Of a stretch of 64,000 bases of DNA, positions 20,434 through 36,471 are shown piece by piece. The notes under the pieces were generated by a model. That model had not been told where the DNA came from. It saw only the letters and a program-made list of their open reading frames with translations, and did not search any database. The stretch's first letter is position 1, and each line of letters starts with the position of its first letter. A program made the position numbers and the translations under genes. The DNA lies in assembly GCA_903926075.1 (NCBI GenBank), contig CAIYHQ010000133.1, forward strand, positions 1-64,000, in the 5' to 3' direction. Source of the stretch: an uncultured Methanomicrobiales archaeon. GTDB taxonomy: Archaea; Halobacteriota; Methanomicrobia; Methanomicrobiales; Methanospirillaceae.

Positions 20434-20724
20434 ATGAGTGTATATGAGATGCTTAAGTTGCGTAGGGATGATATCTATCGACTGGCATCACGATATGGAG
20501 TGACCCGTATCAGGATTTTTGGGTCAGTTTCATATGAAAGGGAGTCTCCTTCATCAGATATTGATCTGTTGGTAGATGTAGATGAAGACCGGAGTCTCCT
20601 CGACCTTGCTCTTCTTTCCAATGTTCTTGAAGACGAATTCGGGAGAAAGATCGATATCGTGACAGAACCCGCATTACATCCACGGCTTCGCCAACAGATC
20701 CTGAAAGAAGCGATTTTACTATGA
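20434..20724 (+). CDS. mntA: MNT-type minimal nucleotidyltransferase (antitoxin of HEPN/MNT pair)
   Basis: 96 residues with the polymerase-beta nucleotidyltransferase core: RIRIFGSVSYERESPSSDIDLLVD (GSx10DxD, the two metal-binding Asp) and a third acid in RKIDIVTE. MntA proteins neutralise HepT toxins by adding AMP to a tyrosine. The stop overlaps the next start as ATGA, the standard arrangement. The catalytic residues look intact although the partner gene is interrupted by a stop. Lies immediately downstream of a transposase relic. Confidence 0.9.
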   Translation: MSVYEMLKLRRDDIYRLASRYGVTRIRIFGSVSYERESPSSDIDLLVDVDEDRSLLDLALLSNVLEDEFGRKIDIVTEPALHPRLRQQILKEAILL

Positions 20725-25158: not shown

Positions 25159-27207
25159 TTGTCACTTCCCTGGCACCCACACCAGGTGAAACTATGGGTA
25201 AACCAGACCGAGCCCAGCATGGATAACAATCAGGACAAGACATTCTCCTTTTTGGTAGAAAATATTATACTTTCCGGTACTCCAGAAGCGGCATGCAAAC
25301 CTCGCAAAATGAATAGGACCGGCAAAGGAAGGGAAAATGTTGTTATTCAGGCAATCAATAGCGGGGTAGATTTCTATCTCCAGAAAGGCGGTGAACCAGA
25401 ATCACTGTTTGCTGAACTGATGTTGAAAATCAGGCAGGCAGTAAAGCGTCACAAAGCCGAGGCAGACCTGATCAAGAGCGAGGCTAATCTCCAGTCAATC
25501 ATTACAAATACTAATGATATTCTCGCGGTGTATGACCCAGAGGTCCGCCTGCTGGTCTACAACCAGGCAGCCAGTGAAATTTACGGCAGCGTTTTGGGGG
25601 TAGAGCTGTATCCCGGCCTTTGTGCAATTGACCTCTTCCCTGAATCGATGCTGGACTTCTGGAATACCAACAATAAACGGGCTCTTGCAGAAGAATCATT
25701 CCCTATCGAGTTCAAACTTCCAATGCCCAACGGCCAGGAGAGATTTTTCGAATCTTCCTATAACCCGATCCGCAAGGATGGAGTGGTGGTTGGTTTTTCG
25801 ACGTTTACCCGCGACATCACCGAGCGTAGGGTTGCAGAACAAATGCTGCAAAAGGCGCACGACAATCTAGAGGTAACGGTAAAAGAGCGGACTGCCGACT
25901 TATATTCTGCAAACATGAAGTTGCAGAAAGAGATTAAGCACAGCAATGTAATCGCCGAATCTTTAAAAGAATACGCAAAGATGACATCCATTCTCAATGA
26001 GGTCATTATCACTGCGAACAAGGCCGAGATGCTCCACTATCTGTTCAGAGACTCACTTGACAAGGCGCTCGAGTTGCTGGATTTTGAAGCAGGGGAAATT
26101 TACCTCTTAAACCCGGTAGAGAGAACCGCAGAGACCGTTTATACCGAAAATCTTCCTGATGATTTCATCGAAATAACCCGCAAAATACCCATTGATGCTT
26201 CCCCCTATGATACCCTGTTTATTAGGGAACAACCAATAATCACTGAACATTTTGAAGAATTGTCGCCTGAACTTGCAGAAAATTACCATTTTTGCTCACT
26301 TGCAAGCATCCCACTCATCTCAAAACATATGGTGATAGGTGCACTTAACGTTATAAGTGCAAAACGGTATACGATTTCGATTGATGAAATACGGGTACTT
26401 ACAGCAATAGGGCGCGAACTGGGCACCTCCATTGCGCGGATGATAGATGAAGATGAGGCAAAGAAGGTATCAGTAAACCTCCAGACACTTTTTGCGTCAA
26501 TTAACGAGATGATCTTTGTGCTGGACATACAAGGACAGATCCTTTCGGTAAACGATGCCGTTTTGAAACGTCTCCAGTATACACCAGGTGAACTGGAAGG
26601 TACTGATGTTGTGCGGTTACATGTACCGGAACGTAGGGACGAGGCACTCCATATTGCTCAGGGAATGATTGCCGGAACTATTGATTCTTGTCCTGTACCG
26701 CTTCTTTCAAAGGATGGCACACGCATCGAGGTCGAGACTAAAGTTACCAGTGGATGGTGGAATGGCAGCAAGGTGCTTATTGGCGTGAGCCGTGATGTCA
26801 CCGAGCGTAAACGGGCGGAAGAGGCGCTTCGCGAGCTTACTGATCGTTTGACACTCGCAACTCGGGTCGGTGGAGTAGGTATCTGGGATTATGATGTCGT
26901 TAATAACATATTGACCTGGGATGACCAGATGTTTGCCCTTTATGGGATAACAAGGGAACAGTTCGGAGGTGCATATGAAGCATGGCAGACTGGAGTTAAC
27001 CCGGATGACCAGCAACGGGGTGACGAAGAGATCCAGATGGCGATACGCGGAGAGAAGGAGTTCGACACCGAGTTTCGCGTTCTCTGGCCGGACGGCAGCA
27101 CGAGAAACATCCGGGCTATCGCTCATGTGCAACGCGATGCCGGGGGTAATACACTGCGAATGATCGGGACCAACTGGGACATCACCCAACAAAGACAAAC
27201 TTGTTAA
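25159..27207 (+). CDS. PAS/GAF sensor protein, truncated at both ends (degenerate kinase)
   Basis: A 682-residue open frame. The N-terminus is atypical and then reads TGKGRENVVIQAINSGVDFYLQKGG, the last third of a receiver domain whose phosphorylation site is missing. Then come a PAS domain (about 105-220), a coiled coil, a GAF domain (about 285-430; AEMLHYLFRDSLDKALELLDF ... IPLISKHMVIGALNVIS), a second PAS (about 435-555) and a third of PAS_3 type (RVGGVGIWDYDVVNNILTWDDQM). The frame stops right after the last PAS; the kinase start continues in the next frame (separate entry). GC-richer than neighbours. Possibly a sensor without output, more likely decaying. Confidence 0.75.
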   Translation: MSLPWHPHQVKLWVNQTEPSMDNNQDKTFSFLVENIILSGTPEAACKPRKMNRTGKGRENVVIQAINSGVDFYLQKGGEPESLFAELMLKIRQAVKRHKAEADLIKSEANLQSIITNTNDILAVYDPEVRLLVYNQAASEIYGSVLGVELYPGLCAIDLFPESMLDFWNTNNKRALAEESFPIEFKLPMPNGQERFFESSYNPIRKDGVVVGFSTFTRDITERRVAEQMLQKAHDNLEVTVKERTADLYSANMKLQKEIKHSNVIAESLKEYAKMTSILNEVIITANKAEMLHYLFRDSLDKALELLDFEAGEIYLLNPVERTAETVYTENLPDDFIEITRKIPIDASPYDTLFIREQPIITEHFEELSPELAENYHFCSLASIPLISKHMVIGALNVISAKRYTISIDEIRVLTAIGRELGTSIARMIDEDEAKKVSVNLQTLFASINEMIFVLDIQGQILSVNDAVLKRLQYTPGELEGTDVVRLHVPERRDEALHIAQGMIAGTIDSCPVPLLSKDGTRIEVETKVTSGWWNGSKVLIGVSRDVTERKRAEEALRELTDRLTLATRVGGVGIWDYDVVNNILTWDDQMFALYGITREQFGGAYEAWQTGVNPDDQQRGDEEIQMAIRGEKEFDTEFRVLWPDGSTRNIRAIAHVQRDAGGNTLRMIGTNWDITQQRQTC

Positions 27208-27426: not shown

Positions 27427-28563
27427 TTAATTAAATGATCTTTTTGCCATGGGTCGATCAGTCTTTGTTTCAGAGAACAGGGAATTGATAACATCTAACA
27501 TCCGCAGGTTCTCATTAAGCCACAAGTAATCCTCTCTCATCGACATGTTTTTAAGAACGCTATATGCCAGATTTACTTTAGGAGTCCTCTCAAACTTCCG
27601 GTACTTATCACGGAGGATCTTTTCCAGATCTTTTTTATCAGCCTTGATTGAACCTTCATCCACGCCAAGAATTGAAAAAAATGTCTCGTCTGCGGGAGGA
27701 AGATACTGCTTCCAGTCCTGATTGATATTTAGTATCTTACTACACCTTGAATAAAATTTATTAATTGCATCGGGTTCAGTAAGAGCAAGCAGCATAATTT
27801 TATCTGATATTTCCTTGTCAATATGTTTCCAATACTCCTTTTTCTTTTCCAGGTTGTTAAGAGCCTCCCGCTCCAGGTGCTTGTAAACAAAATTTATCAT
27901 AGTATCATAATTTTCACGGGATGCAGGGTCAGTGAGAACTGAATAAATTTTCTTAAGCAACTCTGAATCTTTTGGGCTCTCTCCTTTTAGTGTCTCAATA
28001 TCCAGGTCTTTTTCGAGTCCTGCAAATTCGTAAATGTCAGGCATCCCTTCCAGGAAAAGATGGAAATAATCGTTATAAGTTTTTCTTATCTCTTCAACTT
28101 TTCCGACTAATTTTCCTTCGGCAATATGTTTACTATGTAACTCAATTAGTTCTTTTTTTTCAGAAGGGGGGAGGATTTTGGAAAACTGTTCGAAAACGAA
28201 AAGGAACTCATCATACTCTTTCCGGAGACCTGGGTTCTGAAGAACCCTGAATGCTTCAATAATAACTTCATCAGGGTAACATGAAAATTCAATTCTTCTT
28301 TCAAACGCCTGGATAACTTCTAGGATTGTTGCCCCCCTGCTAACACCCATAATGCAATAATAGGTTGGAAAACCATTCATAATGTCATTTACCCATTGAT
28401 ATTGGCGTTTTTCAAACTGTATAAACCGATTGACGTACCTGCCCAGTCGTTCCTCATTAACAAATAGTGAGGAGATCTTCCAGTAGGGGTCATCCTCAAT
28501 TGAGATATCATGACTTAAAGCCTGAACTTTCCGGGCTTTTTGAGCTCTATTTTTAATCCCCAT
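27427..28563 (-). CDS. Protein with three degenerate J-domain-like segments, partner of Hsp70 gene
   Basis: 378 residues, third gene of the chaperone-like cassette, overlapping the Hsp70 gene by 11 bases. Three segments follow the J-domain pattern of an ILGV-like start, two helices, and a final helix with VLxDPxxRxxYD. They are about 67-120 (YYCIMGVSRGATILEVIQ ... VLQNPGLRKEYDEF), 175-225 (IYSVLTDPASRENYD) and 293-348 (TFFSILGVDEGS ... NLAYSVLKNMSMREDY). None keeps the HPD tripeptide needed to stimulate Hsp70 ATPase in canonical DnaJ. It may still dock on Hsp70 as a J-like regulator or scaffold. No membrane segment. Function unproven. Confidence 0.72.
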   Translation of the reverse strand: MGIKNRAQKARKVQALSHDISIEDDPYWKISSLFVNEERLGRYVNRFIQFEKRQYQWVNDIMNGFPTYYCIMGVSRGATILEVIQAFERRIEFSCYPDEVIIEAFRVLQNPGLRKEYDEFLFVFEQFSKILPPSEKKELIELHSKHIAEGKLVGKVEEIRKTYNDYFHLFLEGMPDIYEFAGLEKDLDIETLKGESPKDSELLKKIYSVLTDPASRENYDTMINFVYKHLEREALNNLEKKKEYWKHIDKEISDKIMLLALTEPDAINKFYSRCSKILNINQDWKQYLPPADETFFSILGVDEGSIKADKKDLEKILRDKYRKFERTPKVNLAYSVLKNMSMREDYLWLNENLRMLDVINSLFSETKTDRPMAKRSFN

Positions 28564-30271
28564 CCTTATCCCTGATCAAAATCACGCTGTCATCGTCCAG
28601 GTTTAGACCGGAGATCCTTTGAGAATCATTGGGTTCAATATCATTACAAACAATTGTATCATTATCTCCGATAATGCCTTTCTCCTTTAACTCACGCTTG
28701 AGATCAGATATTGTTCCCGAAGGGTTGAGAAACATGTCAAGAGTCACTTTTCCTGACGTATTTTTTATATCGACATGGACGCTCCCAATACCAAGCAGTT
28801 TCTTCATCAATTTGCTTTTCTCTTTCTTTGAAAGTCTGCTCCGTGATTCCAGTTTTACGCTACGAAGATTACCTGAATCATCATCGTTAGCCGTGACATT
28901 TAGTATACCAAATTCTTCACCAATTTCAAAAGTCACTTTGATTCTATTTTGCCCAAAAGGTAAAGGTTCGATGTTTATCCAGAACTCACCGAGAAATTCG
29001 TTATCCTCTGCCATTTCTTCATCGCCCTGGTATACCGGAATGATGACTTCATCAACAAAATCACCGGCATTTGTGTAACCACGCGTTCTTGAAATCGGGA
29101 TCTTGGTGTTTCGCTCAATAACTTTTGAAAGTGTGCCATCAGCAATCTTCACTCCGAGAGAGCATGATACAACGTCACTGATCTCAATATTTTTTGCATT
29201 CCGTGTTTTTTCTTTCCCGTATTCAATTCCTGCAATGGCAGCGCCAAGGGCGACGGCTGTATATGGGTCTCCACTGAGAGGTTCTTTTCCGAAATAATCC
29301 CTGACAAATTCCCTGACTGCTGGAATAAGCGTTGTACCTCCGACAAGCAGAATATCATCAATCTCGTTTTTTTCAATTGACGCGTCCTGCAGTGCCTGTT
29401 CCATTGGAATTTTTGTATTCTCTATAAGGTCTTTAATAAGGGAGTCAAGTGTCTCCCGTGTCAGAACCATACTGAAGGGGGGTTTGCCTGAAGCAACAAA
29501 GGGGATGGTAATTGTCGTTTTCATGGCCGTGGATAATGCAATCTTTGCCTCTTCAGCAGTTTCTTTTAATGTCGCGAGAAGTGCCAGGTCTTTTTTTGTA
29601 TCGACGCCTAACTGACGATGTAACTTTTTAGTCACATGTTCAACTATGCGGGCATCAATATCATCTCCACCAAGCCTGTGCTCGCCGGTGCTTGCATCAA
29701 CATCAAAAAATCCCGATGCAACTGTTAACACAGACACATCAAAAGTCCCTCCTCCAAAATCATATACAAGCACTTTTCGGTCTAGGTCTTCCCGTATCCC
29801 ATATGCTAGTGCAGCAGCTGTTGGTTCGTTGATAAGTCTCACGACATTGATTCCTGCAATCTCTGCTGCGTCCCGGATGGATTGCCTCTGACTGTCAGAA
29901 TAATTCGCAGGTACTGATACTACTGCATCAAAAAACTTCTTTCCAATCCTGATTTCCGCATCATCGATAAGTTTTTTAAAAATCAGTGCACCGATGTATT
30001 CAGGAGGGAATTTGTAGCGACCGACTTTCTTATAATAGTCAGTTCCCATTTCCCGTTTGATTGAACTTACAACCTGATCTGGATTTGCAATCTGATTACG
30101 CTTAGCAAGTTCTCCGACAGTATAACTTTTTTCGCCTTTAAAATGGACGATGGAAGGTGTTATTGTCTTTCCTTCACTGTTCTCAATAACTTCCGGATTA
30201 TCGAGCAGCATATAAGCCATCTTAGAGTTTGTTGTCCCAAAGTCTATACCCAGGATATCCCTTTCTATCAT
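28553..30271 (-). CDS. Hsp70-family chaperone with C-terminal ubiquitin-like domain
   Basis: 572 residues from the ATG at 30269-30271, which has GGAG 6 bases upstream; the frame is open to 30283. The ATPase domain is complete: ILGIDFGTTNSKMAY, SVPANYSDSQRQSIRDAAEIAG, NEPTAAALAYG, VYDFGGGTFDVSVL, LLVGGTTLIPAVREF. The beta-type substrate domain follows (about 370-480). The usual alpha-helical lid is replaced from about residue 494 by a beta-grasp, ubiquitin-like segment (VHVDIKNTSGKVTLDMFL, NPSGTISDLKRELKEKGI, SGLNLDDDSVILI) ending in DKDGD, without a Gly-Gly tail. This is not the housekeeping DnaK. It sits between a GrpE-like and a J-like gene. Confidence 0.88.
   Translation of the reverse strand: MIERDILGIDFGTTNSKMAYMLLDNPEVIENSEGKTITPSIVHFKGEKSYTVGELAKRNQIANPDQVVSSIKREMGTDYYKKVGRYKFPPEYIGALIFKKLIDDAEIRIGKKFFDAVVSVPANYSDSQRQSIRDAAEIAGINVVRLINEPTAAALAYGIREDLDRKVLVYDFGGGTFDVSVLTVASGFFDVDASTGEHRLGGDDIDARIVEHVTKKLHRQLGVDTKKDLALLATLKETAEEAKIALSTAMKTTITIPFVASGKPPFSMVLTRETLDSLIKDLIENTKIPMEQALQDASIEKNEIDDILLVGGTTLIPAVREFVRDYFGKEPLSGDPYTAVALGAAIAGIEYGKEKTRNAKNIEISDVVSCSLGVKIADGTLSKVIERNTKIPISRTRGYTNAGDFVDEVIIPVYQGDEEMAEDNEFLGEFWINIEPLPFGQNRIKVTFEIGEEFGILNVTANDDDSGNLRSVKLESRSRLSKKEKSKLMKKLLGIGSVHVDIKNTSGKVTLDMFLNPSGTISDLKRELKEKGIIGDNDTIVCNDIEPNDSQRISGLNLDDDSVILIRDKDGD
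28556..28792 (-). other. Ubiquitin-like beta-grasp domain at the end of the Hsp70 protein
   Basis: The last 79 residues of the Hsp70 gene. The order strand-turn-strand (VHVDIKN, GKVTLDMFL), a Ser-Gly-Thr-Ile turn (PSGTISDLK) starting a helix (SDLKRELKEKGI), a middle strand (DTIVCND) and a final strand after an SGLNL turn (DDSVILI) is the ubiquitin topology. Side-by-side reading with ubiquitin gives matches at the TxxTIxxxK helix start and the xSxLxLxxR end. It lacks a C-terminal GG, so conjugation is unlikely; it may be a binding module. By-eye call only. Confidence 0.65.
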
Positions 30272-30290: not shown

Positions 30291-31310
30291 TTAACTATCT
30301 CTTTTTATATCAATCTGCATATCTGTCAATTCGATGCCATCAGTATCCTGATCAGGTTTGTATTCCTCAGTGTTATAATCATCCTTTTCTTCTAGTTTTA
30401 CCGAATTTTCTACAGATGGGATTTCAGTATCCTGGCATTCTACGGATAATTGGGAAAAGACCTCCTTTAAATATTCCATCTCATCTTCATGTCTTTCAAT
30501 CGTTTCAGCCTGGACCTGCAATTGATACTCGACATCCTGTTTCTCTACGAGAGATTGGGAAACGGTTTCCTTTAAACCATTTATCTCCTTTCTGAGCCTT
30601 TCAATAGTATCAGCCTGCTCGCGCATGAGGCCTTCAATTTCCTGTTTTTCTGCAAGAGATTGAGAAACGAAATCCTTTAGCTGGTTGATATCCTCTTCGA
30701 ATCTGAGTGTTGTTTCACTCCGGGCGTGTTCAAGTTGAGAAATCTCTTCGTCAAAGTGGGCAAACCTGCCCCGGCCAGGGAACACCCAGTCCGTAAATCG
30801 ACCCCATATTTCGTTTTTTTTATTTTTGTTTTTTACACGGGGGAATTTTGAGATGATTACTTCTGCGGGTCTTATCAGAATATTCTCTCGCATGTAACCT
30901 TTTCTTATTACCGAAAAGACGCTACCTTCAGGATAACGGCTGCCATACTCGAGCCCGACTGCCATATGTAATGTATCATCGAATTTATCACCCGGTCCCG
31001 GATCAACAGGAGTAAGACCTGACGAAAAAAGGAGTTGACTGTATAATGCGTCTATATTTTTTTGAAAGTTCTCGTTCGCATCTTTGACAATATCACAGGA
31101 ATTATTATTAACCCCGCAAGATATACGACACAAAGAATCTGCAAAGACAAGCATTTTTTTTGCAAAATCAGATTGGAGTTCCTTTTTTTTAAGGGCATCA
31201 TTTTTCCGGTTGGTCTCAATATAGTCCCTGAACTCTTTTTTTAATGTATTGTATTGTGATTCTAAAAGTTCAGCTTTTTTTTGTATTTCTGTATTGGCGA
31301 AATCATCCAT
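30291..31310 (-). CDS. GrpE-like nucleotide exchange factor with coiled-coil repeat tail
   Basis: 339 residues from the ATG at 31308-31310. Residues 1-156 look like GrpE: a long N-terminal helix (KAELLESQYNTLKKEFRDYIE), a four-helix part, then the beta domain pattern FDDTLHMAVGLE, GSVFSVIRKGYMRENILIRPAEVIIS. After a basic linker (about 157-185) the tail is a coiled coil with two near-identical 35-residue repeats (LKDFVSQSLAEKQEIE... and LKETVSQSLVEKQDVE...) and a partial third, then an acidic end. First gene of the cassette; a TATA-like GATTATATG at 31338-31346 suggests a nearly leaderless transcript. Confidence 0.8.
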   Translation of the reverse strand: MDDFANTEIQKKAELLESQYNTLKKEFRDYIETNRKNDALKKKELQSDFAKKMLVFADSLCRISCGVNNNSCDIVKDANENFQKNIDALYSQLLFSSGLTPVDPGPGDKFDDTLHMAVGLEYGSRYPEGSVFSVIRKGYMRENILIRPAEVIISKFPRVKNKNKKNEIWGRFTDWVFPGRGRFAHFDEEISQLEHARSETTLRFEEDINQLKDFVSQSLAEKQEIEGLMREQADTIERLRKEINGLKETVSQSLVEKQDVEYQLQVQAETIERHEDEMEYLKEVFSQLSVECQDTEIPSVENSVKLEEKDDYNTEEYKPDQDTDGIELTDMQIDIKRDS

Positions 31311-31484
31311 TGCAACAAATAATGAGAACTGAATCACATATAATCTCTTACTTCTTCAAATTTCTCTTAACGCTAATATTTGGATTTTATTCAAAAGAGT
31401 GAGTCTCGATTAGCAAATTAAACAGACTCTATAATTCGCTGGATCATAAGGAAAATTGGGTATTTAAGGACATTTCATGATGTC

Positions 31485-32465: not shown

Positions 32466-33217
32466 ATGACATATGGAAGTAAATTCAGGTCGCGGATGTC
32501 TCATGATGACATGCAAAATATTGCCCAGTTGATTGAATCTCTAACCCCTGATAACCCATATGTGACTATTGAGCAGCGAATTTTTAAGCCAGATGGCAGT
32601 ATTCGATGGCAAAGATCGGTTGACCGAGCTATCTTTCATAATGAGGGTAAATTAAAGGAATATCAATCAGTTGGCAGGGATATTACTGAACTTAAGGAGC
32701 GCGAGTTAGATTTAAGCGAGAAAAATTATCAACTGCAGATCTGACGAAAAGTCTGCATTCCTTAAAAAATCTGAAATTGAAGGGTATGTAAAAGAATTTC
32801 CATTGTAACTCAGGAAAATTGATGTCGAAATTTTTGATACTTTTATTAATATTGTCCCTCTTCGAGAAAAGAACGGTTCGATAAAGGCATTTATTGGTAC
32901 ATTTCGGGGTGTGACAGAGCGCAAACGAGCTGATGAAGCATTACGGGAAAGTGAGGAGAAGTACCGTGCACTCTTTGCAGCCGAATCGGATGGTATTGTT
33001 GTAGTTGAGAGAGGAACCGGAATAATCCATGGATTGTAATGATGCATACCCTCAAATGTATGGTTATCGAAAGGAAGAGATAATTGGAAAACTTAAACTT
33101 CTCTCAAGCATAACCTGGCACGGCATAAACAATCAACTTACAATACAGGAGACAGGTGAGCCGGGGGAGGGAGCACGGTTTGAGATTACAATTCCAAATT
33201 GGAAATGGCGATTTTAA
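32466..33217 (+). pseudogene. Collapsed PAS-histidine kinase
   Basis: Pieces of a kinase closely related to the next gene: a PAS end (SLTPDNPYVTIEQRIFKPDG, VGRDITELKEREL) to a stop at 32742-32744, a second PAS piece in another frame (IVPLREKNGSIKAFIGTF, VTERKRADEALRESEEKYRALF), then from 33029 a frame in which PAS (YPQMYGYRKEEIIG), the H-box region (LKLLSSITWHGINNQL, with His changed in context to WHGI) and the last ATPase residues (TGEPGEGARFEITIPN) are joined directly. Internal deletions removed the N and G boxes. It ends inside the ribosome-binding region of the intact kinase. Confidence 0.8.
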
Positions 33218-33222
33218 GAGAA

Positions 33223-36200
33223 ATGAACATGGATCAAGAGCCAATCCGGGTACTTTATGTTGATGATGAAATTGAACTTTTAAACGTAGGGAAACTCTTC
33301 CTTGAGAAGGATAGAACGTTTAATGTCGATACAGTCTTATCTGTCAGAGATGCACTGGAATATCTGAACTCTACTCATTATGACGCCATTGTATCAGATT
33401 ATGAAATGCCTGATATGGATGGAATTCAGTTTCTTAAGCAACTAAAGAAAAAAGGAAATAAAATCCCATTTATTGTCTTTACAGGTAGAGGACGTGAAGA
33501 AGTTGTAATTGAAGCTCTGAACTGTGGAGCAGATTTTTATATTCAGAAAGGTGGTAATCCAAAGGCACAATTTACAGAGCTTTCTAACAAGATTCGTTAT
33601 GCAGTATCTCGAAAAAGAACAGAGGATTTATTAAAAGAGAGCGAGGAACGATATCGAAATGTAGTAGAAGACCAGACTGAGTTCATCTGCCGCTTTCTTC
33701 CGGACGGAAGACATATCTTTGTGAACGAAGCATATTGTCGTTATTTTGGATTGGATCGTAAAGATATTATTGGAAGTAAATTCAAACCAAAAATGCCACT
33801 GGAAGACAATCAGAATGTTAATCAACTAATTTCTTCCCTCACACAGGATAATCCTTATGTTACGATTGAGCAACAAATTTTTCTGCCAGACGGCAGTACC
33901 CGGTGGCAACGATGGGTCGATCGCGCTATTTTTCATCCAAATGGTAACTTAAAGGAATATCAGTCAGTTGGCCGTGACATCACCGAGCTAAAAGAACGTG
34001 AAATATCATTGAATGAGAAAAACTATGAACTTCAGGCAGCATATGAGCAAATCGCCTCTGCTGAAGAAGAATTAAGACAACAATTTGAAGAGAATAAAGT
34101 CGCGGCACAAGCACTCAGTGAGAGTGAAAGGAAATTACAGGGGATAGTTCATGGCTCACCGATTCCCCAGTTTGTTATAGATAAAGATCATCATATCATA
34201 AGCTGGAACGAGGCACTTGCGAAATATAGTAGGATTAAAGCTGAAGAAGTTCTTGGAACAAAATCTGCTTGGAGAGCGTTTTATGAGAAAGAACGCCCGG
34301 TATTGGCAAATCTAATATTAGATGGATCTATTGAAAAAATTCCTGAATGGTATACTGGAAAATATCACAAGTCTAAATATGTTGAGGATGCCTACGAAGC
34401 AATTGATTTTTTTCCACATATGGGGACTAAAGGAGTCTGGTTGTTTTTTACTGCATCGACTATTAGAGATTCAGACGGTACTGTTATCGGGGCAGTAGAG
34501 ACGCTTGAAGATATTACTGACAGAAAAATAAAGGAAGATGCCCTTAAGGAAAGCGAAGAAAAGTTCAGAAACGTTGTTTTATCAGTAAATGAGGCTATTA
34601 TCCTTCAAGAAAAGACGGGAGAGGTAATAACATGGAACACCGCAGCAGAAAAGCTATTTGGTGTTACTGCTATGGAAATGATTGGGCATAAAGCAACAAA
34701 TCATAAATGGAAGACAATTCACGAAGATGGAACTTATTTTCCAGAGATAGAACATCCATCCATGCGTACTTTAGCGAATGGTGAACCATGCAAGGATGTT
34801 ATCATGGGTATCACAAGTGCGGATGGAAGATTTTCATGGGTCAGTATCAACACGAGCCCTCTTATCAGGCAGGGGGATTCAAAACCGGGAGCAGTTACCA
34901 TCTCATTGCTGGACATCACCGATCGCAAGCGGACAGAGGAGGAACTTCGCGCTAATTTAGAGAAATTGACCCGGCAACAACTGGCATTGCAACAATCAAA
35001 GCGGGAGCTTGCTGAAATTATTGAATTTCTCCCGGATCCAACGATTGTCATCGACCGACAAGGAATAGTGATCGCGTGGAACCGTGCGATAGAGGAGATG
35101 ACGGGAACCAGTAAGGATGAGATGATTGGTCAGGGAGATCATGCATACACAATCCCTTTTTACGGTAAGCGACAGAAACATCTTCTGGACCTCATTGATC
35201 TGAATGATAATGATATAAAAATGAAATATCAGCATGTCCGGCGAAAAGGCAATACCTATTATGCAGAAATTTTCGCTCCGGCATTATATGGTGGAAAAGG
35301 GGCATACTTGTGGGTTACTGGATCACCTCTGTTTGATATTCAGGGTATCCGCATCGGTGCGATAGAATCCATTCGTGATATTACCGAACGTAAGCTCGCT
35401 GAAGAAGCACTTCATGACGCAGTACTCAAATGGCAATATACTTTTGATTCAAATCAGGATGGAATATGCCTTTTAGACACAAACCAGCGAATAATGATGT
35501 GCAACCGAACGATGAAGGAGATAGTTTGTGCAACGAACCAGGATGACCTTACTGGGTTACACTGTTGGGAGGTATTACATGGTACGATTGGACAGATTCC
35601 AGATTGCCCATTTATCCGGATGCAGACTTCGCTTAAAAGGGAAACGATTGAACTTGGGATTGGTAACCGGCTTTTTATGGTTGTTACAGATCCAATTCTG
35701 GATGAGACACAAACGCTTATTGGTACAGTTCACAGTATTCGTGATATTTCTGAACGAAAAGAACTGGAACTGGAAATGGAGTACCATGAACAGGAACTCA
35801 GGAAATATTCAAGTTCACTCGCAATAGCGAATAAGAAACTTTCCCTTCTCTCTAGCATTACACGGCATGATATTAACAATCAACTTACGGTATTAATGGG
35901 CTACCTCTCGATTCTGGAAGATAATCAGCCAGATCCCAAACTTAATCAATATTTCCAGAAATCTGTAAGAGCTGCACAACGGATCTTATCCATGATCCAG
36001 TTTACGAAAGAATACGAACAAATTGGAGTCCATTCTCCTTCATGGCAGAATGCAAGCACAATTGTCGACAATGCAGCCACACAAGCTCCGCTTGGACATG
36101 TTATAGTAAAAAACGATCTCCCTATTAATGCAGAAGTGTTTGCAGATCCACTGTTTATGAAAGTATGCTACAACCTGATGGATAATGCAGTGCGTTACGG

Positions 36201-36471
36201 CGGAAAGATTACCACTATCAGGTTTTATCTTGAAGATAGCAATCAGGATAAGTTAATAATATGCGAGGATGATGGAGATGGAGTGCCGGCTGAAGATAAA
36301 GAGCGAATCTTTGAACGGGGTTTTGGGAAAAATACCGGTCTTGGTTTAGCCATTTCAAGAGAAATTCTTGATATTACTAACATTACCATTCACGAAACGG
36401 GAGAGCCTGGAAATGGAGCAAGGTTTGAGATGAGGGTTCCAGATAGAAAATGTCACTTTGGGAATAATTAA
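33223..36471 (+). CDS. Hybrid sensor: receiver, five PAS domains, histidine kinase
   Basis: 1082 residues from ATG 33223 (another in-frame Met follows 2 codons on; the frame is open from 33199). Receiver at 1-125 (VLYVDDE, VSDYEMPDMDG with the phospho-Asp, FTGRGREE). Five PAS domains follow, starting near ESEERYRNVVED, LSESERKLQGIV, KESEEKFRNVVL, SKRELAEIIEFL and LKWQYTFDSNQD. Then the H box LSSITRHDINNQL, N box NLMDNAVRYG, G1 EDDGDGVP, F FERGFG and G2 GLGLAI. Soluble: no membrane segment. Typical of the large cytosolic redox/ligand sensors of methanogens. Its relatives lie broken at 24.8, 25.2, 32.5 and 43.7 kb. Confidence 0.92.
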   Translation: MNMDQEPIRVLYVDDEIELLNVGKLFLEKDRTFNVDTVLSVRDALEYLNSTHYDAIVSDYEMPDMDGIQFLKQLKKKGNKIPFIVFTGRGREEVVIEALNCGADFYIQKGGNPKAQFTELSNKIRYAVSRKRTEDLLKESEERYRNVVEDQTEFICRFLPDGRHIFVNEAYCRYFGLDRKDIIGSKFKPKMPLEDNQNVNQLISSLTQDNPYVTIEQQIFLPDGSTRWQRWVDRAIFHPNGNLKEYQSVGRDITELKEREISLNEKNYELQAAYEQIASAEEELRQQFEENKVAAQALSESERKLQGIVHGSPIPQFVIDKDHHIISWNEALAKYSRIKAEEVLGTKSAWRAFYEKERPVLANLILDGSIEKIPEWYTGKYHKSKYVEDAYEAIDFFPHMGTKGVWLFFTASTIRDSDGTVIGAVETLEDITDRKIKEDALKESEEKFRNVVLSVNEAIILQEKTGEVITWNTAAEKLFGVTAMEMIGHKATNHKWKTIHEDGTYFPEIEHPSMRTLANGEPCKDVIMGITSADGRFSWVSINTSPLIRQGDSKPGAVTISLLDITDRKRTEEELRANLEKLTRQQLALQQSKRELAEIIEFLPDPTIVIDRQGIVIAWNRAIEEMTGTSKDEMIGQGDHAYTIPFYGKRQKHLLDLIDLNDNDIKMKYQHVRRKGNTYYAEIFAPALYGGKGAYLWVTGSPLFDIQGIRIGAIESIRDITERKLAEEALHDAVLKWQYTFDSNQDGICLLDTNQRIMMCNRTMKEIVCATNQDDLTGLHCWEVLHGTIGQIPDCPFIRMQTSLKRETIELGIGNRLFMVVTDPILDETQTLIGTVHSIRDISERKELELEMEYHEQELRKYSSSLAIANKKLSLLSSITRHDINNQLTVLMGYLSILEDNQPDPKLNQYFQKSVRAAQRILSMIQFTKEYEQIGVHSPSWQNASTIVDNAATQAPLGHVIVKNDLPINAEVFADPLFMKVCYNLMDNAVRYGGKITTIRFYLEDSNQDKLIICEDDGDGVPAEDKERIFERGFGKNTGLGLAISREILDITNITIHETGEPGNGARFEMRVPDRKCHFGNN

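Follow-up and report, generated by a model that had tools for sequence, protein, structure and literature searches.

An archaeal Hsp70 with a ubiquitin-like domain in place of most of its helical lid, encoded with GrpE-like and J-like proteins

The helical lid of Hsp70 chaperones normally traps the client, and degenerate J-domains of the Pam16/Tim16 type, which have a J-like fold without the HPD tripeptide, are active in an Hsp70 system. The HPD of J-domains is described as critical for stimulation of the Hsp70 ATPase, and R167 and D393 of DnaK as J-domain-related positions (PMC7289447). Hsp70s without part or all of the lid, e.g. Stch/HSPA13 and plant Hsp70T, are discussed in an account that cites a proposed holdase role for lidless forms (PMC10687569). 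In eukaryotes, the ubiquitin-like domain (Ubl) of BAG-1 may connect Hsp70 with the proteasome. BAG-1 is reported as absent from bacteria and archaea (PMC7766421). Specialised chaperone gene sets are also on record, e.g. the neighbourhoods of GAP1-N2 GTPases, which are described as including HSP70, GrpE and DnaJ-FNIII genes (PMC7159879).

The locus analyzed here lies in a 64,000-nt stretch (the window) of contig CAIYHQ010000133.1, from an uncultured Methanomicrobiales archaeon, and encodes an Hsp70 that ends in a ubiquitin-type domain (Hsp70-Ubl; Table 1). It shares with DnaK (Hsp70, PF00012) the nucleotide-site signatures of the nucleotide-binding domain (NBD), the β-domain for substrate binding (SBD-β) and the grpE-hsp70-J gene order, but differs in that only the start of lid helix A is present, a Ubl is added, the linker reads EISD for VLLD and, on the rooting discussed below, the protein belongs to a separate clade. 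Stch/HSPA13 and Hsp70T, by contrast, are truncations that have no Ubl in the place of the lid. A Ubl on the Hsp70 machinery is shared with BAG-1 as described (PMC7766421); however, eukaryotes place it on co-chaperones, in the BAG-1 case on a separate exchange factor, whereas in these archaea it is within Hsp70 itself, has no Gly-Gly end, and the exchange factor is GrpE-like. Specialised HSP70-GrpE-J gene sets are shared with the GAP1-N2 conflict systems, but the archaeal triad has no GTPase or effectors, and the account of GAP1-N2 reports no Ubl in the passages bearing on these genes (PMC7159879).

In the passages retrieved from open-access full texts, Hsp70-Ubl fusions are not reported for any prokaryote, and the fusion is unmentioned in the relevant parts of surveys of archaeal Ubls (PMC2948915), prokaryotic β-grasp proteins (PMC1779556) and archaeal DnaK (PMC3564930); the chaperone machine is apparently previously unreported. 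The lid and the HPD are treated as core elements of the Hsp70 cycle. An ancient archaeal Hsp70 lineage under selection that has changed both, plus the hydrophobic linker, offers a natural test of which elements of that cycle are dispensable, and of what lid and ubiquitin folds do.

Table 1. Hsp70-Ubl, its segments and the adjoining genes in the window. The 572 aa of Hsp70-Ubl are counted from the first ATG of the ORF at 28553-30271 (-).
Feature	Position	Strand	Evidence
J-like protein, three J-like regions, 378 aa	27427..28563	-	PF00226 E 2.8e-10, two stretches
Hsp70 (NBD + SBD-β) with C-terminal ubiquitin-like domain, 572 aa	28553..30271	-	PF00012 E 2.6e-142
Ubiquitin-like β-grasp domain, residues ~496-572	28556..28786	-	profile, hhalign, AlphaFold2, Foldseek, VIA-align
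Lid helix A stub, residues 480-493, LSKKEKSKLMKKLL; family LSKKEKNKWMKKLL	28793..28834	-	model helix 482-493
Altered interdomain linker NIEISDV, residues 361-367, replacing (D)I/V-V-L-L-D-V of DnaK	29171..29191	-	family alignment
GrpE-like protein, long C-terminal extension	30291..31337	-	PF01025 E 2e-26, residues 15-164

A ubiquitin-type fold at the lid position

The initial annotation had proposed a ubiquitin-like β-grasp order for the last 79 residues of the protein (28556-28792, i.e. residues 494-572), with a TxSDLK-type helix start and an SGLNL turn; both motifs are present, as TISDLK (520-525) and SGLNL (554-558). Taken by itself the window tail is only weakly ubiquitin-like: its match to PF00240 (E 0.14) falls below the Pfam cut-off, and its phmmer match to single-ubiquitin PDB chains has an E-value of ~0.002, the much lower values that phmmer also returns being sums over polyubiquitin repeats. 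This weakness is what favors an ordinary explanation, in which the tail is a normal lid cut short, the outcome of a frameshift or a sequence that resembles ubiquitin by chance. The family as a whole speaks otherwise. A profile of 25 homologous Hsp70-Ubl tails finds monomeric ubiquitin in the PDB with E ~1e-5 and di-ubiquitin with 1e-12, and in hhalign it aligns with human ubiquitin across 60 columns (P 3e-6). Scanned one by one, 24 of the 25 tails give a match to PF00240, the best at 4.2e-7. Homology to the ubiquitin family is thus found by the family profile and by scans of the family members.

Structure prediction leads to the same fold. Modeled alone with 24 relatives in AlphaFold2, the tail adopts a confident β-β-α-β-short helix-β arrangement (pLDDT 82), and is neither a helical lid nor disordered; the same elements recur in the full-length model (pLDDT ~70-83 in the tail). 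In Foldseek searches of the PDB the best 50 matches are all ubiquitin or ubiquitin-like proteins, led by the Bacteroides fragilis ubiquitin-like protein 8hm2 (E 5.9e-7, TM 0.75), and VIA-align gives Z-scores up to 12.6 with ISG15 ranked top, a rank that, like any difference within Z 1, carries no meaning. The tail is also under purifying selection: pairwise comparisons with three relatives give pN of 0.13-0.18 against pS of 0.67-0.73, and dN is far below dS, of which, with dS near saturation, just the direction is reliable. A tail that is conserved, selected, confidently folded and ubiquitin-like in ~40 relatives leaves next to no credence for the ordinary explanation, chance likeness and a shortened lid being ruled out by the family profile, the fold and the selection tests. 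That the C-terminal ~75 residues have a ubiquitin-type β-grasp fold, as first proposed, is confirmed.

This β-grasp and the profile similarity are what the tail shares with ubiquitin, NEDD8 and 8hm2. The archaeal Ubl differs from that family in being fused to a chaperone, in having no Gly-Gly end and in its changed Ile44-patch positions. All 40 tails lack the C-terminal Gly-Gly through which E1 activation would proceed, as had been noted for the window protein, and end in RDKDGD or similar; a conjugated, SAMP-like modifier was rejected on this ground.

Profile, predicted structure and fold search agree in placing the Ubl at the position of the lid, an arrangement kept in ~40 relatives. The PF00012 match, in two stretches, ends at residue 491 and takes in SBD-β, the strands of which are present in the model, and the NCBIfam DnaK models match only up to residue 490; in the canonical DnaK of the same genome, the helical lid runs from the position that aligns with the start of the Hsp70-Ubl tail. 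The α-helical lid (SBD-α, helices A-E) is therefore missing apart from the start of helix A, which in the family reads LSKKEKxxWMKK and at residues 482-493 is helical in the full-length AlphaFold2 model. Thus it is midway along helix A that the Ubl takes over from the lid; the proposal that the lid is replaced stands for what would follow, but not for the first turns of helix A (~480-493), which persist.

The stub bears on the possibility that the Ubl folds over the SBD-β cleft of its own chaperone, as a compact lid or an autoinhibitor moving with the stub. The Ubl sits at the lid position and is joined to SBD-β by a short and highly conserved stretch of helix that leaves hardly any flexible linker, which would suit such a surrogate gate, as would the conservation of the helix A stub itself (K482, K485, M489 and K491 are invariant in 40 tails and W488 is present in 38/40), which exceeds that of most Ubl positions. 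However, at ~75 aa the Ubl is far shorter than a helical lid, and the full-length model, built from a 21-row alignment, is of low confidence (mean pLDDT 67, with a poor NBD in which residues 13-87 fall below 50) and so is uninformative on relative domain placement. We regard a gating role as unlikely, albeit worth bearing in mind.

The Hsp70 core, its distribution and descent

The core of Hsp70-Ubl is 40-43% identical to canonical DnaK. The actin-like NBD (PF00012 E 2.6e-142) has the phosphate, connect and adenosine motifs, the ATP-site motifs GIDFGTTN, SIKR, NEPTAA and DFGGGTFD being near-invariant in 34 members. The interdomain linker, by contrast, is not of the hydrophobic VLLLD type, reading IEISDV as opposed to the IVLLDV of DnaK; EISDV is invariant in 34/34 members, so that the Asp equivalent to D393 is still present in all 34, and the Arg equivalent to R167 is kept in 26/34.

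A phylum sample of 392 Halobacteriota genomes was searched with the tail and with a J-like profile. The tail search was positive in 26 genomes, including two (L035 and L036; E 0.003-0.007) in which the matches are TrkA-like proteins, not relatives, so that 24 of the 392 are true carriers of Hsp70-Ubl. The J-like protein is present in 24/24 of these; its profile finds 25 genomes, i.e. the same 24 and G325, which is 64% complete. In the latter the J-like gene (L130, G325:C127, 1988-3085) is an orphan with no Hsp70 adjacent, the sole Hsp70 detected in that genome being full-length; it may represent a decayed or rearranged triad.

Among the matches listed from 84,980 species genomes, members occur in Methanomicrobiales, Methanospirillum, Methanoregula, Methanophagales (ANME-1), ANME-2 and Methanoperedens, and the family comprises ~40 Hsp70-Ubl relatives across Methanomicrobiales, ANME-1, ANME-2 and Methanoperedens, a set of methane-producing and methane-consuming archaea. 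A record labelled Candidatus Nitrosotalea (L043) was not counted as evidence of membership in Nitrososphaerota, its protein matching a Halobacteriota genome (G224), and no viral copy was found among 284 pattern matches in viral contigs.

A maximum-likelihood tree of Hsp70 cores splits 34 Hsp70-Ubl proteins from 15 canonical DnaKs with support of 100/100; the tree is midpoint-rooted, so that the term clade presumes a root outside the Hsp70-Ubl group. A canonical Hsp70 is also present in all 10 carrier genomes tested. The genome of the window has a canonical grpE-dnaK-dnaJ cluster (L001). The window genome further contains a second, paralogous triad of GrpE-like, Hsp70-Ubl and J-like genes (L002, G000:C76), the Hsp70-Ubl of which is 87% identical to the window protein in the Hsp70 core and 76% in the tail.

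Candidate partners of Hsp70-Ubl and the docking proposal

The GrpE-like gene lies upstream of hsp70-ubl and the J-like gene downstream, with an 11-nt overlap between the latter and the end of hsp70-ubl. A J-like gene is next to Hsp70-Ubl in 48/48 loci, a number that includes some duplicates and corresponds to ~40 distinct loci; wherever the flank is long enough (21 loci), a GrpE-like gene precedes Hsp70-Ubl. No other recurrent neighbour of the triad was found among the loci listed. The GrpE-like protein has a GrpE domain (PF01025 E 2e-26) that aligns with canonical GrpE, and a C-terminal extension that its matches predict to be coiled-coil-like; its ORF as listed has a GTG start, with an in-frame ATG at its residue 10.

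The J-like protein has J-domain similarity (PF00226 E 2.8e-10), and the family alignment, judged by eye, gives three J-like regions per protein. The HPD tripeptide is absent from the first of these in 38/38 sequences: the His column holds Tyr in 36, Phe in 2 and His in none, while the Pro is mostly retained and the Asp is variable, with YPD in the window protein. A J-like family with three such regions and Tyr for the HPD histidine is itself apparently undescribed. Pam16/Tim16 differ from the archaeal protein, which has three J-like regions and is soluble-looking, and the likeness does not imply a mitochondrial origin.

Gene sets of this composition raise the question of whether the triad serves in immunity as a chaperone-based module, in the manner of the GAP1-N2 GTPase gene clusters. 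Its distribution is patchy, and gene clusters that combine HSP70 and GrpE with a DnaJ fusion are described from bacteria (PMC7159879); yet no GTPase, FNIII or effector gene is beside the triad in the loci listed, PADLOC assigns none of the three triad proteins to a significant family, and descent is within a single clade across several orders. A conflict or defence role therefore appears very improbable.

The surface of the Ubl is relevant to what it may bind. Ubiquitin position 44 is mostly Phe in the tails (Val in the window protein), position 68 is mostly Glu and position 70 is Arg in 36/40. Because these Ile44-patch positions are altered, classic ubiquitin receptors probably do not read the Ubl. 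The best-kept Ubl residues in the 40 tails are [YF]LNP (514-517) and L528; to judge from the alignment, they would form a patch off the Ile44 surface, as might be expected if the Ubl had a partner of its own and not one that binds ubiquitin in general, although [YF]LNP may be conserved in part for structural reasons.

An adaptor for degradation, passing Hsp70 clients to the archaeal proteasome (20S core plus PAN or Cdc48), is one function that might be considered for such a domain. The genome encodes 20S α and β subunits, two PAN-type ATPases and two Cdc48-type proteins. To our knowledge, proteasomes are near-universal in archaea, so the 20S and PAN genes are no evidence for this role. In its favor is the example of BAG-1, in which a Ubl and a domain that binds Hsp70 occur together and which is described as associating with the proteasome (PMC7766421). 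The changed residues at 44, 68 and 70 argue against a degradative role, as does the lack of a proteasome gene inside the triad. A degradative function is, on balance, distinctly unlikely. If the Ubl does recruit another protein, a product of its own operon is a better candidate than a protease, given the co-occurrence of the J-like protein in 24/24 genomes and the altered Ile44-patch positions.

We tentatively propose, as a reading that falls somewhat short of an even chance, that the triad constitutes a dedicated second Hsp70 machine, in which the Ubl provides a non-covalent docking site for the co-encoded J-like protein. The three-gene unit comprises a GrpE-like putative exchange factor, the lid-replaced Hsp70 and a degenerate J-like protein. 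The NBD likely still binds and hydrolyses ATP, since its signature residues are kept, and SBD-β may hold clients just briefly, with fast exchange, since the helical lid is absent. The Ubl, being fixed to the chaperone, would dock a partner non-covalently, the J-like protein being the likeliest ligand because it and Hsp70-Ubl always co-occur; a J-like protein without the HPD histidine would, moreover, need another tether to Hsp70. Such a Ubl tether could then stand in for the lid and the HPD handshake as the link between client binding and ATP turnover. Against docking of the J-like protein, synteny and co-occurrence link GrpE, the client and the NBD to the Ubl equally, and there is an orphan J-like gene in one incomplete genome. 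The stronger form of the proposal, i.e. that the machine is self-contained and that docking of the J-like co-chaperone by the Ubl, not a lid with an HPD J-domain, couples clients to the ATP cycle, is more doubtful, and we hold it to be rather less likely than its converse. If true, a Ubl-coupled machine would be a different way to run Hsp70.

Large PAS/GAF signalling proteins flank the triad in the window, at 25159-27207 (+) and 33199-36471 (+), the second of which also has response-regulator receiver and histidine-kinase domains. At 20434-20724 (+) lies a gene for a small nucleotidyltransferase (PF01909) of a type that occurs in MNT/HEPN toxin-antitoxin pairs.
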